Part shown: positions 5,640-24,566 of the stretch, one piece after another
How the letters are laid out: each line of letters starts with the position of its first letter
Numbering within the stretch: position 1 is the stretch's first letter
The notes under the pieces: generated by a model
Database searches by the model: none
Told to the model about the DNA's origin: nothing
The model's input: the letters and a program-made list of their open reading frames with translations, nothing else
DNA from: a virus
Reading direction: 5' to 3' (one strand)
IMG/VR virus record: IMGVR_UViG_3300049840_000035
Location: 1 to 25,794 of that record
DNA length: 25,794 nt
Translations under genes and position numbers: made by a program

Positions 5640-6389
5640 ATGAAATCTTTTAAAACATTCCTAGACGAAGGTGTCGACGATCCGGCAATATTTAAGGCGG
5701 TATTCCTTGCAGGTGGGCCAGGTTCTGGTAAGTCATTCATCGTCGGTAAGACCGGACTTCCGGCACTAGGATATCGAGTCATAAACTCTGATGATGCTTT
5801 TGAGGCGGGACTTGCAAAGGCAGGTCTTGAAATGACACCAGATAATATCTTTTCACCACAGGGTCAGGAGATCCGTGGTAAGGCAAAAAGTGTCACTAAG
5901 AAAAAAGAAGTTAGATCTATGATAGGTCGTCTTGGTCTTGTCATTGATGGTACAGGTAAAGATTCAGACAAAATTGCACGTCAGGCAAAATCTCTAAAAG
6001 GTCTTGGTTATGATGCTGCAATGATTTTCGTCAATACTGATTTGGATACCGCCCTTAATCGTAACCGTATGCGAGCACGATCTCTTCCGGACAAAGAAGT
6101 GACCGCATATTGGAAAACCGTACAGAGCAACATAGGTAAATTCCAAACCCTTTTTGGTAAAGACAAGTTCCTAGTGGTCGATAACTCTGACGGTAAAGAC
6201 TATAAAGCAGAGACTCTACGTGCATACAAAGACATCCGTAAGTTTACTGACAAACCACCAGAGTCTAAGAAGGCAAAGGATTGGATTGAAAAACAACGTG
6301 AGTTAAAGAGAACTGGTGGTCAGAGAGACGCAAAAAGACTTCCTGGCAAGTCCATGAAGATCAAAACCAGATCCGGAAAGATTCGTTAA
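5640..6389 (+). CDS. Zeta-toxin-like P-loop kinase with N-terminal capsid-targeting-like peptide
   Basis: 249 residues. Residues 25-32 (GGPGSGKS) are a Walker A P-loop. INSDDAFEAGL and VIDGTGKDSDKIARQAKSLKGLGYDAAMIFV follow the order seen in zeta-toxin/polynucleotide-kinase-like ATPases, which phosphorylate small substrates such as UDP-GlcNAc or nucleic acid ends. The substrate here is unknown. The N-terminus MKSFKTFLDE matches a peptide shared by other genes in this window and resembles the T4 internal-protein capsid-targeting sequence; cleavage after E10 would release the kinase in the head. The basic Lys/Arg-rich C-terminal tail (about residues 205-249) suits binding to DNA or the head core. 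A late promoter (5601) precedes it. Confidence 0.75.
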   Translation: MKSFKTFLDEGVDDPAIFKAVFLAGGPGSGKSFIVGKTGLPALGYRVINSDDAFEAGLAKAGLEMTPDNIFSPQGQEIRGKAKSVTKKKEVRSMIGRLGLVIDGTGKDSDKIARQAKSLKGLGYDAAMIFVNTDLDTALNRNRMRARSLPDKEVTAYWKTVQSNIGKFQTLFGKDKFLVVDNSDGKDYKAETLRAYKDIRKFTDKPPESKKAKDWIEKQRELKRTGGQRDAKRLPGKSMKIKTRSGKIR

Positions 6390-6396
6390 AAAACTC

Positions 6397-6426
6397 TTGA
6401 CACTCCCCCCCAAACTATAGTATAAT
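6397..6426 (+). promoter_or_regulatory. Sigma70-type promoter for the diheme peroxidase gene
   Basis: TTGACA at 6397-6402 and TATAAT at 6421-6426 with an 18-nt, C-rich spacer. It lies in the 80-nt intergenic gap directly upstream of the peroxidase ATG at 6470, so the gene appears to be transcribed on its own early-type promoter. Confidence 0.75.
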
Positions 6427-6469
6427 TCCTCTCGTAAATTGAAATAGAGTATTGAGAGGCTCTTATATT

Positions 6470-7888
6470 ATGCAACGTTTACTTACTGTAGCGGTAACAA
6501 GCGCACTTATCAGTGCGTGTTCCGGTGGAGGTTCTGACACCCCACCACCCGTCGTGGCAGATCCTGTCACATCACCACCCACAACGACACCCGTCGACCC
6601 AGCAGTCGAGGCACGTGATAATCTACTCACGTTACTTGACTCTACGTCACCGACAGGTTCATACGAGGCATACATCCTACCCGCGAGTGATGACTTCGAC
6701 AATATCCCGCAAGATCCCAGCAATGAGATCACCGCAGAGAAAGTCGCATTGGGTAAGTTGATCTATCACGAGACTGGTATCACCGATGGTAACATCGCGG
6801 GTATGGAAGATACTTTCTCTTGTGCATCTTGTCACAATGCACAGAACGGATTCAAGTCCGGTATTCGTCAAGGTATTGGCGAAGGTGGTATCGGTTTTGA
6901 TCATCGCATGATTGCTGAAGGAATTAATCCAGAAGATGCTGATGTGCAACCAGTAACATCACCTACAGTACTGAATACTGCCTACCAAGAAGTTATGCTT
7001 TGGAATGGTCAGTTCGGTAATGAAGTTGGTGGTATTGTGAACATAGGCATTGACCCAGATCGTCACTTCACGGAAGGTACTCCTAAAGAAGCAAACTTAC
7101 GAAATCTGTCCGGACTAGAGACTCAGGCAGTCGCGGGTCTTGGTGTTCATCGAATGAATGTTGAAGAGGGTTCCATACTCACAACCAATGAATTGTATCA
7201 AATGATGTTCGAAGATGCATATGGAATCGCACAACCAGACGACATGTTGGAAGCTGCTGCTCTTGCAGTCGCTGCATTCGAACGAACCGTCCTATCTAAC
7301 GAGGCACCATTCCAAGACTATCTCCGTGGAGATGAGACTGCGATGACTGAGACTCAGGTCGCTGGTGCAGAAGTATTCTTCGGAAAGGGTAACTGTCACT
7401 CATGTCACAACGGTGCTGCACTATCGTCACCCAAGGGTGCGATGGCAGACCAAATCTTCATGACTGTCGGATTCCACGATCTCGACATCTGGGAAGACGT
7501 GATTGGTGACGTGAATGAAGCAACACGTGAGGGACGTGGGGGTTTCACTGGAGATACACTGGACAAGTTCAAGTTCAAAGTACCACCACTTTACAATCTT
7601 ATAGATACAGAAGTGTTTGGTCATGGTGCTTCGTTCTCTAGTGTAGAAGATGTTGTTAGGTACAAGATTGAAGCGGTACCACAACACCCACAAGTAGAAA
7701 TTGCGGATCTTGACTACAGGTTCACACCTCTGGATCTGACTGAGGATGAGATTGCAAATCTCGTTGAATTCCTTGAAGTTGGTCTACGAGATGACAACTT
7801 GATGCGGTATGTGCCTGAATCTTTACCCAGTGGTAACTGCCCCGTCAACAACGACGAAGTGTCGCGACAAGAACTAGGTTGCGACTAA
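6470..7888 (+). CDS. Diheme cytochrome c peroxidase / MauG-family lipoprotein
   Basis: 472 residues from ATG 6470; an in-frame TTG at 6452 is not preferred because the lipoprotein signal begins at 6470. Residues 1-17 are a signal peptide with lipobox I-S-A-C17, then a Pro/Thr-rich linker (to about 50). Two c-type heme sites are clear: C118-A-S-C121-H122 and C309-H-S-C312-H313. SPTVLNTAYQ...MLWNGQFGNEVGGI corresponds to the inter-heme region (FWDGR-type) of bacterial cytochrome c peroxidases, and KFKVPPLYNL to the conserved segment before the C-terminus. The family reduces H2O2 or oxidises protein substrates in the periplasm, using host cytochrome c maturation. Such an enzyme is highly unusual in a phage; it was probably acquired from a host. 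It has its own promoter and no other respiratory genes nearby. Confidence 0.85.
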   Translation: MQRLLTVAVTSALISACSGGGSDTPPPVVADPVTSPPTTTPVDPAVEARDNLLTLLDSTSPTGSYEAYILPASDDFDNIPQDPSNEITAEKVALGKLIYHETGITDGNIAGMEDTFSCASCHNAQNGFKSGIRQGIGEGGIGFDHRMIAEGINPEDADVQPVTSPTVLNTAYQEVMLWNGQFGNEVGGIVNIGIDPDRHFTEGTPKEANLRNLSGLETQAVAGLGVHRMNVEEGSILTTNELYQMMFEDAYGIAQPDDMLEAAALAVAAFERTVLSNEAPFQDYLRGDETAMTETQVAGAEVFFGKGNCHSCHNGAALSSPKGAMADQIFMTVGFHDLDIWEDVIGDVNEATREGRGGFTGDTLDKFKFKVPPLYNLIDTEVFGHGASFSSVEDVVRYKIEAVPQHPQVEIADLDYRFTPLDLTEDEIANLVEFLEVGLRDDNLMRYVPESLPSGNCPVNNDEVSRQELGCD

Positions 7889-7899
7889 GAAGGAGAATT

Positions 7900-8109
7900 A
7901 TGTCTTACAAAGAATATCACGGTGATATCGCTAAGGTCTGTGACCAGTGTGGATATATCATACAACACATCGAAGATGCAGAAACGCAGCGTGATATTCT
8001 TACAGGTCAATTGAAGTTTTATGTGAAGTCTCTCAAGGTGGAGTCGGAATTACGCGAAACCTTGGTACAATCATACGACAAATGCGACGATTGTGAGACA
8101 TATAAATAG
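7900..8109 (+). CDS. Small protein with two CxxC pairs
   Basis: 69 residues. ATG 7900 has an ideal AAGGAGA ribosome-binding site; an in-frame upstream ATG at 7879 overlaps the peroxidase gene and is rejected. CDQC near the N-terminus and CDDC near the C-terminus flank a helical, heptad-like middle (IEDAETQRDILTGQLKFYVKSLKV). This suggests a helical hairpin closed by a zinc site or a disulfide pair. The last codons and TAG stop lie within the TATAAATA late-promoter box at 8101-8108. Function unknown; redox or zinc-binding is inference. Confidence 0.65.
   Translation: MSYKEYHGDIAKVCDQCGYIIQHIEDAETQRDILTGQLKFYVKSLKVESELRETLVQSYDKCDDCETYK
8101..8108 (+). promoter_or_regulatory. T4-type late promoter box ahead of tRNA-Ala/ncRNA
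   Basis: TATAAATA at 8101-8108, overlapping the stop codon of the previous gene (TAG 8107-8109) and only 10 nt before tRNA-Ala. Transcription from it would start close to the tRNA 5' end and run on into the structured RNA and its terminator. Confidence 0.6.
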
Positions 8110-8117
8110 GAAGTATA

Positions 8118-8193
8118 GGGGCTATAGCTCAGTTGGGAGAGCGCTTGATTTGCATTCAAGAGGTCGTGGGTTCGACTCCCTCTAGCTCCACCA
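8118..8193 (+). tRNA. tRNA-Ala (TGC)
   Basis: A 76-nt cloverleaf. The acceptor GGGGCTA pairs with TAGCTCC (one G-U), the anticodon stem CTTGA/TCAAG has TGC at 8151-8153, a T arm with TTCGACT is present, discriminator is A8190 and CCA is encoded at 8191-8193. The structured RNA's closing helix begins only 4 nt after the CCA, so tRNA 3' processing would create its 5' end. Confidence 0.95.
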
Positions 8194-8400: not shown

Positions 8401-9078
8401 ATGTTTGAACACGTATTTACAGAACTAACCGAAATGAATGCTGTTACCACTGAGAAGGGGCGACAGTACCGCACACCTGAAGGCATCAACCTTCCATCCA
8501 TCACAACAGTTCTTTCGATACTGTCCCGTGAATCTATTGCAAAGTGGCGAGCAAGAGTAGGTCATGAAGAAGCGAATCGTATCTCGCACCGCGCATCCTC
8601 GCGTGGGACGCGAGTCCACGAGATCGTAGAGAAGTATATCAACAATGAGGAGACCTTTAAGGATGGATATACTCCAGACATTATTAGTAGCTTTGGTGAT
8701 CTTAAGCCCATTTTGGATAGCCGTATCGGTAGAGTATATGCACAGGAAGCCCCTCTCTACTCAAACCACTTGGGAGTGGCTGGTCGCGTCGATTGCGTTG
8801 CTGAGTTCGATGGTAGTCTTTCTATCATTGATTTCAAAACATCTATGAAACCCAAACGGAAGGATTGGATCACCAATTACTTCATGCAAGAGTCCGCCTA
8901 CGCAATCATGTGGGAGGAACGCACGGGTCGTCCCATCACTCAACTTGTCACCATCATATCCGTAGACAACCACGAACCGCAGATCTTTGTCGAACACAGA
9001 GATACGTGGGTCCGACCCCTACGCGAAACAATCGCTAAATATAACGAAGAAAATTCACACAATTCCCTTGACATATAA
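8401..9078 (+). CDS. RecB/Cas4-type PD-(D/E)XK exonuclease
   Basis: 225 residues. The RecB-nuclease motif order is complete: H73 in RGTRVHEIVEKY, D131 in GRVDCVAEF, D144-F-K146 in SIIDFKTSMK, and Q163-x3-Y167 in FMQESAYAIMW. These residues bind Mg2+ and cut DNA in RecB/AddB/Cas4-like exonucleases. Related proteins in T4-like marine phages are probably used in recombination or host DNA breakdown. No ribosome-binding site precedes ATG 8401 and the promoter implies a leaderless transcript; internal ATG 8434 is the alternative start but would drop the N-terminal FEHVFTEL. The TAA stop lies in the next late-promoter box. Confidence 0.8.
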   Translation: MFEHVFTELTEMNAVTTEKGRQYRTPEGINLPSITTVLSILSRESIAKWRARVGHEEANRISHRASSRGTRVHEIVEKYINNEETFKDGYTPDIISSFGDLKPILDSRIGRVYAQEAPLYSNHLGVAGRVDCVAEFDGSLSIIDFKTSMKPKRKDWITNYFMQESAYAIMWEERTGRPITQLVTIISVDNHEPQIFVEHRDTWVRPLRETIAKYNEENSHNSLDI

Positions 9079-22574: not shown

Positions 22575-24566
22575 ATGACAATAGATGTTAAATATGATCG
22601 TGATCGTCTGTTGAAAGATTATGCTGTGGGTATGTTGAAAGACTTCTATATGATGGAAGATGAGACTTCTCCACAAGACGCTTACATGAGAGCATCAAAT
22701 GCATGGGCGGTCTTTCAAGGTGAGTTAGACGAAAAACTAGCAGAAAGGTTGTACGAGTATGTGAGTAAAAAGTGGTTCATGTTCGCATCTCCTGTACTAT
22801 CTAATGCTCCAAAAAACGGTGAGACCAAAGGAAAGGGTCTTCCGATTTCTTGTTTCCTCACATATGTACCAGACACTCTTGAAGGACTCATTGAGCACTC
22901 CAGCGAGTTACGTTGGTTGTCCGTGATGGGTGGTGGTGTCGGAGGACACTGGGGTAGTGTCCGAACGGTCTCAGACATCGCGCCTGGCCCGATTCCTTTT
23001 ATGCATACGGTCGATGCGGACATGATTGCATACCGTCAGGGGAAGACGCGTAAAGGGTCTTACGCGGCTTATCTGGATGTGTCACACCCAGACATTATTG
23101 AGTTCATTAACATCCGAATTCCTACGGGAGACGTACAACGTAAGGCACTAAACATACACAACGCAGTCAATATCTCCGATGAGTTCATGGCGGCGGTTAT
23201 CAATAATACCGACTTCGATCTACGTGATCCGAAAGACGGTGCGGTCAAGGACACAGTCAATGCTCGCAAACTATGGGAACGCATTCTTGAAATTCGTTTC
23301 CGTACAGGTGAACCCTACCTGAACTTTATCGACACTGCGAATCGTGGTCTACCAATGTCTCTCAAGGAAAAGGGACTACGCATTCACGGTTCGAACTTAT
23401 GCAATGAAATTCACTTACCGACAAACGAAGACCGCACGGCCGTCTGTTGTTTGTCTTCTTTAAACTTAGAGTACTATGATGAATGGAAAGACACTAATAT
23501 CGTGCGTGATCTTGTTCGTATGTTGGATAACGTTCTCCAATATTTCATCGATCACGCGCCCGATAGTATTTCCCGCGCTCGTTATTCGGCAGAGAGAGAA
23601 AGAAGTATTGGATTGGGAGCGATGGGATTCCACTCACTCCTACAAAAACACTCTGTTGCTTGGGAATCTGACAAGGCTAGAGAGATCAATGAAGTGGTGT
23701 TCCAACACATCTCAGACGACGCTATCGCTGAAACACAACTATTGGCAAAAGAACGCGGTGAGTATATCGACGGTGAACATACTGGAAGAAGAAACTCACA
23801 CCTCTTAGCGATCGCACCTAATGCATCATCGGGCGTAATCCTATCAACATCCCCATCTATTGAACCCCTCAAGGCATGTGCGTACACGCATCGTACACGT
23901 GCGGGATCCTTCCTTGTGAAGAACGCGCACCTAGAGAAACTCCTAGAAGAGAAGGGTCATAACAACGAATCTACATGGTCTAGTATCATTACTAAAAAAG
24001 GGTCGGTGCAACACCTACCATTCCTTAACGAAGGAGAGAAGGCGGTATACAAGACCGCTCAGGAACTAGACCAGAATTGGGTAATAACACATGCCGCTGA
24101 TCGACAAAAATATATCTGTCAGGGTCAGTCGGTTAATTTGTTCTTCCCATCCGGTGCACCGAAGAGATATGTCAACAAGGTGCACTTCAACGCGTGGAGA
24201 CAAGGACTAAAGGGTCTTTATTATCTACGCACCGAAGCCAAGTCAAGGGCAGAGACGGTTTCGGACAAAGTCGAACGGGTAGCACTCGAAGACGATAACC
24301 GCACCATCATCTACGGTAAGAGTAACTGTCCGTGGTGTAAGTTGGCGACCGAAGAGTTGTCACTGCGCGGCACTCCGTTTGACTATATCGATCTGGAAGA
24401 GATCGGTAAAACCGCTGCAGAAGTAACTGGGCGAAAGGTCAAAACTGTCCCACAGATTTACATCGAAGGTCGATATGTGGGTGGGTATGAAGACCTAATG
24501 AGTCACTTGGAAAGTGATTACAACGAGACCGAATCAGGCGATGAATGTCGTGCCTGTGAAGGTTAA
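22575..24566 (+). CDS. nrdA: Class I ribonucleotide reductase alpha subunit with C-terminal glutaredoxin domain
   Basis: 663 residues. It reduces ribonucleoside diphosphates to deoxy forms for phage DNA synthesis, in a complex with NrdB. Catalytic residues are all visible: C93 (PISCFL) and C291 (TAVCCLSSLNL) as the redox pair, N274-L-C276-N-E278 as the thiyl radical site, and Y549-Y550 (KGLYYLR) for radical transfer. The N-terminus starts directly with the catalytic domain, so the ATP-cone activity site is absent and dATP shut-off is unlikely. Residues about 576-645 form a glutaredoxin domain with C585-P-W-C588, TVP-QIYIEGRYVGGYEDL. It lies before the C-terminal tail C658-R-A-C661 that re-reduces the active site. 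It is followed by nrdB after 32 nt. Confidence 0.93.
   Translation: MTIDVKYDRDRLLKDYAVGMLKDFYMMEDETSPQDAYMRASNAWAVFQGELDEKLAERLYEYVSKKWFMFASPVLSNAPKNGETKGKGLPISCFLTYVPDTLEGLIEHSSELRWLSVMGGGVGGHWGSVRTVSDIAPGPIPFMHTVDADMIAYRQGKTRKGSYAAYLDVSHPDIIEFINIRIPTGDVQRKALNIHNAVNISDEFMAAVINNTDFDLRDPKDGAVKDTVNARKLWERILEIRFRTGEPYLNFIDTANRGLPMSLKEKGLRIHGSNLCNEIHLPTNEDRTAVCCLSSLNLEYYDEWKDTNIVRDLVRMLDNVLQYFIDHAPDSISRARYSAERERSIGLGAMGFHSLLQKHSVAWESDKAREINEVVFQHISDDAIAETQLLAKERGEYIDGEHTGRRNSHLLAIAPNASSGVILSTSPSIEPLKACAYTHRTRAGSFLVKNAHLEKLLEEKGHNNESTWSSIITKKGSVQHLPFLNEGEKAVYKTAQELDQNWVITHAADRQKYICQGQSVNLFFPSGAPKRYVNKVHFNAWRQGLKGLYYLRTEAKSRAETVSDKVERVALEDDNRTIIYGKSNCPWCKLATEELSLRGTPFDYIDLEEIGKTAAEVTGRKVKTVPQIYIEGRYVGGYEDLMSHLESDYNETESGDECRACEG

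Follow-up and report, generated by a model that had tools for sequence, protein, structure and literature searches.

A CcP/MauG-related di-heme lipoprotein gene, seemingly new to phages, in a T4-like phage lineage

The closest described systems are the bacterial cytochrome c peroxidases (bCCP) of N. gonorrhoeae, Nitrosomonas and S. oneidensis and the enzymes MauG, BthA and MbnH. In bCCP, single-residue variants of Glu and Gln are inactive (PMC10094543). In BthA, the E277Q variant impairs both activities and the Glu is essential (PMC6405878). MauG/MbnH-type enzymes use a Tyr as distal ligand (PMC6405878, PMC7567364). For phages, the nearest c-type precedent found is the reported SoxD, and the two soxD contigs lack one or both heme motifs (PMC8190135). 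The statement of an earlier note on this DNA that c-type cytochromes are rare in lytic phages thus needs a qualification, as they are not wholly unprecedented, if with damaged heme motifs. The locus described here resembles phage SoxC/SoxD in being a phage-borne periplasmic redox function that needs host maturation; SoxD differs in being a sulfane dehydrogenase subunit. No phage cytochrome c peroxidase or MauG was found in the open-licence literature, an absence that is not proof. In PMC9448743, cytochrome c peroxidase is named in a host-metabolism figure legend and not as a viral gene. Phage auxiliary genes are mostly cytosolic or photosynthesis-related; here an exported enzyme is maintained.

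The window, that is, the whole stretch of DNA analysed, comprises 25,794 nucleotides of the IMG/VR record IMGVR_UViG_3300049840_000035. Positions 6470-7888 hold a genuine and intact gene carried by the phage. Its open reading frame starts with ATG on the plus strand and encodes a lipoprotein of 472 aa, with the following features.

6397-6426, plus strand: sigma-70-type promoter TTGACA-18-TATAAT, 12/12 consensus matches
6446-6469, plus strand: conserved leader and ribosome-binding site tattGAGAGGctcttatatt before the ATG (upstream alignment)
6470-7888, plus strand: di-heme CcP/MauG-superfamily lipoprotein, 472 aa (motifs, Pfam, AlphaFold model, Foldseek)
6470-6520, plus strand: lipoprotein signal peptide and lipobox ISAC, Cys17, with Ser at +2 (sequence motif)
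6527-6667, plus strand: flexible linker rich in Pro/Thr, under less constraint (dN/dS about 0.28)
6821-6835, plus strand: heme 1 site CASCH, residues 118-122, peroxidatic heme domain (CxxCH motif)
7001-7003, plus strand: Trp178, counterpart of the CcP/MauG inter-heme Trp (invariant; alignment)
7019-7108, plus strand: insert specific to the subfamily, about 30-35 residues, after the Trp and before the distal Gln (alignment)
7124-7126, plus strand: Gln219, the distal-pocket Gln common to CcP/MauG (alignment)
7148-7153, plus strand: His227-Arg228, replacing the catalytic Glu of CcP/MauG, invariant in phage copies (alignment)
7394-7408, plus strand: heme 2 site CHSCH, residues 309-313 (CxxCH motif)
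7661-7666, plus strand: Tyr398-Lys399, at or next to the distal-ligand column of the second heme (Met in CcP, Tyr in MbnH-like proteins; alignment)

The two CxxCH heme sites and the lipobox are intact, as had been noted from the letters. The signal sequence is MQRLLTVAVTSALISAC. Cys17 is invariant in the full-length phage members and was present in 69 of 70 cellular homologues. Under the Lol rule, a lipoprotein with Ser at +2 is of the outer-membrane type. The lipobox Cys followed by Ser, with no Asp at +2 (ISAC-S), points to a predicted location at the outer membrane, on its periplasmic face. The sigma-70-type promoter that had been assigned to the gene is kept in relatives of the window's own subclade. 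It is not general to the phage family; in other phage subclades, the gene lies directly behind a tRNA gene or has no TTGACA-18-TATAAT promoter.

The assignment to the superfamily was supported by profile and fold. The Pfam profile CCP_MauG (PF03150) scored 81.6 bits (gathering cut-off, 25.6; E 1.2e-22), which together with the CxxCH motifs at 118 and 309 places the protein in this superfamily. The best NCBIfam matches were MauG-like families, far below their cut-offs: TIGR03981 (His-Xaa-Ser system MauG-like) gave 114.4 bits against 340, and TIGR03791 (MauG, TTQ biosynthesis) gave 90.2 bits against an equivalog cut-off of 443.85. An AlphaFold2 model built on a 56-row alignment (pLDDT 95.4, pTM 0.94) predicted the di-heme peroxidase fold, and in a Foldseek search of the PDB it matched N. 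gonorrhoeae CcP best (TM by target 0.79), followed by MbnH (0.73) and MauG (0.6-0.69). No PHROG matched the lipoprotein, and the viral structure library held no structural match to it. These two results, and the lack of any earlier description in the open-licence literature searched, support the view that such a gene had not previously been described in phages, and this seems to be a CcP/MauG-related di-heme lipoprotein gene new to phages.

We then compared the active site with those of the known enzymes. Cys17, both CxxCH motifs, Trp178, Gln219, His227-Arg228 and Tyr398 are invariant across the full-length phage copies. The protein shares with bCCP the fold, the two CxxCH motifs, the inter-heme Trp, the distal Gln and an FK(V/I)P...N segment ahead of the second-heme distal helix. 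In fold alignments, its identity to bCCP is 19-27%. Unlike bCCP, it is a lipoprotein with a linker, has an insert behind the Trp and lacks the distal Glu/Pro, the Met ligand and the P-heme His. Where canonical relatives have Q...P...(E)(M/L), this family has QAVAGLGVHRM. Of the distal Gln-Pro-Glu set of canonical bCCP, Gln219 is kept, whereas Pro is replaced by Gly and Glu by HR; His227-Arg228 is nearly invariant in the bacterial homologues too. In place of the canonical Met ligand of the C-terminal heme, the column holds Lys399 with Tyr398 beside it. Tyr398 is near-universal and stands one residue before the column of the CcP Met or MbnH-like Tyr ligand. Because Lys399 is replaced by Phe in ten bacterial members, Tyr398 is the better candidate for the second-heme ligand. 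The first heme has no resting His ligand, and Glu138 or Gly stands where the classical P-heme has its distal His. The likeness to MauG, BthA and MbnH lies in the fold, a second heme without a Met ligand, a Tyr near the ligand column and a first heme without a resting His. Unlike these enzymes, the phage protein lacks the distal Glu, has Lys in the ligand column and its Tyr one position away, and comes with no mau or mbn genes and no known substrate; mau genes were not found in the window or in the annotation of the related complete phage C48C1.

The nearest relatives, lipoproteins labelled 'cytochrome c peroxidase' in Alteromonadales and marine Bacteroidota, form an uncharacterised subfamily. 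The phage protein belongs to this same subfamily (40-57% identity) and shares its VHR(M/L) and YK/YF motifs, insert and lipobox; the difference is that the bacterial genes are chromosomal and the phage clade is a separate branch. Judged by the alignment, this is an uncharacterised subfamily with a non-standard predicted CcP/MauG active site, common to the phage and bacterial relatives, and the gene marks this di-heme subfamily, whose distal pocket is unusual. The inter-heme motifs had been called intact, which is true of Trp178 and Gln219 but not of the catalytic Glu/Pro or the E-heme Met. Similarly, the identification as a CcP/MauG-like lipoprotein is borne out at the level of the superfamily, by Pfam and fold and by an intact gene, although the active site is that of neither a standard CcP nor a standard MauG.

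The window is otherwise that of a T4-like phage, with large and small subunits of ribonucleotide reductase, an exonuclease, a cytidylyltransferase and seven tRNAs. Three features lie directly downstream of the gene.

7902-8109, plus strand: small ORF of family 52 containing two CxxC pairs; close relatives also have it after ccp (ORF list, locus comparison)
8118-8193, plus strand: tRNA-Ala(TGC), of the tRNA cluster that marks ccp-bearing phages (tRNA call)
8401-9078, plus strand: exonuclease (phrog_298), syntenic downstream marker of the locus (PHROG match, synteny)

The gene was found in 62 IMG/VR contigs (59 from the first scan and three later), four of which are 137-160 kb long. A gene of 84% identity, annotated 'hypothetical protein', is present in C48C1, a complete circular 156-kb T4-like phage with T4-type head, tail and replication genes. 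The phage context that the earlier note wished to see on longer contigs is thus confirmed. Chimerism or mis-binning was rejected, given the even GC across 6400/7890 (0.43-0.47), the 137-160 kb contigs and the complete circular genome. The locus is near-constant: tRNA genes surround the gene, and the exonuclease comes shortly downstream, except in L055-L057 and L060, whose neighbourhood is different. Among the 80 closest exonuclease loci, the gene was present in 29 and absent from 40 having enough upstream sequence. The carriers mostly account for the exonucleases of highest similarity, so that the gene is a clade marker. None of the 16 non-carrier loci scanned had a tRNA gene at that place.

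The pairwise dN/dS had a median of 0.095 in the core and 0.28 in the linker, which indicates that the gene is under purifying selection (dN/dS about 0.09). As for the loss-of-function changes named in the earlier note, every full-length relative retains the Cys, the Trp and the two heme motifs. Many independent contigs have the gene in the midst of phage genes, and selection acts on it, as would be the case for an auxiliary gene. We take it to be auxiliary to a lytic lineage of T4-like marine phages, and the sequences show it fixed in a single clade of these phages. In a maximum-likelihood tree with Bacteroidota/Rhodothermota homologues as outgroup, the phage sequences form one group inside the gammaproteobacterial homologues, beside two Glaciecola sequences. 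The deepest fork uniting all phage copies has moderate support (91/76), and members of the clade go down to about 50% identity. The phylogeny suggested for finding the donor clade thus traces the phage gene, as far as sequence comparison shows, to a gammaproteobacterial (Glaciecola/Alteromonadales-like) lipoprotein. Zeaxanthinibacter sp. PT1 and an uncultured bacterium (L086, L103) have two tandem copies of the bacterial homologue.

For the function, our preferred reading, to which we give an even chance, is a stand-alone, outer-membrane-anchored periplasmic peroxidase that would use the heme attachment and electron donors of the host. The N-terminal heme, without the resting His of classical CcP, would be open to peroxide with no need for reductive activation. 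H2O2 would be split at this heme with Gln219 and the invariant His227-Arg228 replacing the usual Glu, and electrons would pass from host periplasmic donors through the second heme and Trp178. The gain would be that the infected cell, or its envelope and heme/iron-rich respiration, is shielded from peroxide of seawater or of the infection, alongside the cytosolic peroxiredoxin of some of these phages. Expression of the gene and protection from H2O2 are what we infer from these features. Apart from its copy of the lipoprotein, complete C48C1 encodes no c-type cytochrome (a CxxCH in one HNH endonuclease is there by chance); therefore, the host must supply both the electrons and the heme attachment. 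The dependence on host lipoprotein sorting, heme attachment and periplasmic electrons would make peroxide, or the envelope redox state, a constraint on infection. No conserved partner gene was found beside the cellular homologues, as expected for a stand-alone peroxidase as opposed to an enzyme with a dedicated protein substrate; in the phages, the locus comparison gave no consistent neighbour besides the tRNAs and exonuclease, and a dedicated substrate or partner gene was rejected. Peroxiredoxin is encoded in C48C1, G001 and G522. It is missing from several long ccp-positive contigs, so the antioxidant theme is not obligate. What stands against the peroxidase reading is that the distal-pocket catalytic Glu and Pro, conserved across CcP, MauG and BthA, are absent. 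Since BthA cannot do without the Glu, nor bCCP without the Glu and the Gln, we can only infer peroxidase activity of the phage lipoprotein.

We consider it unlikely that the protein is instead a MauG/MbnH-like oxidant, in which H2O2 would generate high-valent hemes that oxidatively modify a host envelope protein, for example a porin or receptor; the effect might be a block to superinfection or a changed surface. The E-heme distal column has no Met and is adjoined by the invariant Tyr398, and Tyr is used there by MauG/MbnH-type enzymes, but Tyr398 is one residue off the MbnH ligand column. The outer-membrane type of the lipoprotein would suit such a role, and MbnH is the second-best fold match. 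The top NCBIfam matches are MauG-like families, though far below cut-off, and the match to MauG itself is weak in sequence. In addition, the canonical MauG/BthA distal Glu is missing, and neither the bacteria nor the phages have a conserved neighbour that could serve as substrate.

It also appears doubtful that this di-heme protein has lost its reaction with peroxide and serves electron transfer or sensing, or catalyses a different reaction. Such a change of role would account for the loss of the catalytic Glu and Pro, the new invariant VHR motif and the 30-35-residue insert. However, the distal Gln and inter-heme Trp are kept, His-Arg is a plausible distal acid-base pair, and the P-heme side, without a ligating His, looks open. 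Finally, a passenger gene of no benefit to the phage, or host DNA mis-binned as virus, would fit the sister phages without the gene but has hardly any probability left, being refuted by the 62 contigs and one complete genome, the conserved locus, the dN/dS of 0.095 and the single phage clade, whose members reach down to about 50% identity.

One bacterial copy, L062 from a Halieaceae MAG, is the sole bacterial sequence nested within the phage group. A tree that groups the phage rows to the exclusion of L062 was rejected (AU p 1e-6), and with it a position of L062 outside the phage clade. We also rejected L062 as a mis-binned phage contig, since alaS, lysC, csrA and tRNA-Ser flank the gene and match relatives up to the tRNA end. 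The gene lies 1.4 kb behind tRNA-Ser(GCT) (region L062:4321-7314), and the synteny with genus relatives (lysC, csrA, tRNA-Ser) ends at or just past the tRNA end. Most of the relatives' contigs end near that same point, and no empty site is visible whole. The gene is not common in Halieaceae, as it was found in 1 of 140 family genomes. These results suggest that L062 is a likely phage-to-bacterium transfer into a tRNA-linked island, and hence a likely case of a gene moving from bacteria to phage and back to bacteria. The phage-type copy in this MAG is also a hint at the host group. A wider scenario, which we regard as a long shot, is that this T4-like lineage carries an outer-membrane-anchored di-heme oxidase, which differs from the characterised CcP and MauG enzymes in having a distal His-Arg pair and modifies a host envelope protein (e.g., excluding rival phages), and that the gene has returned to bacteria via tRNA-linked islands.

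Several further features of the locus were observed. Peroxiredoxin genes are common in the same locus (L061:2349-2942; L178, L183-L206), also in sister phages without the di-heme gene. In the window, positions 1341-1694 encode a cupin-like protein that matches a PHROG named cysteine dioxygenase, and the ribonucleotide reductase large subunit (22575-24566) has a C-terminal thioredoxin/glutaredoxin-like domain (phrog_22, residues 563-647). At least seven window proteins (starts at 5640, 9124, 10200, 11444, 11809, 13422 and 17948), a P-loop ATPase and a cytidylyltransferase among them, begin with a shared motif like M(K)xFxxFLxE. This start resembles the targeting sequence of T4 internal head proteins, cut by the prohead protease, and by this likeness many proteins of the locus may be packaged in the head and injected.
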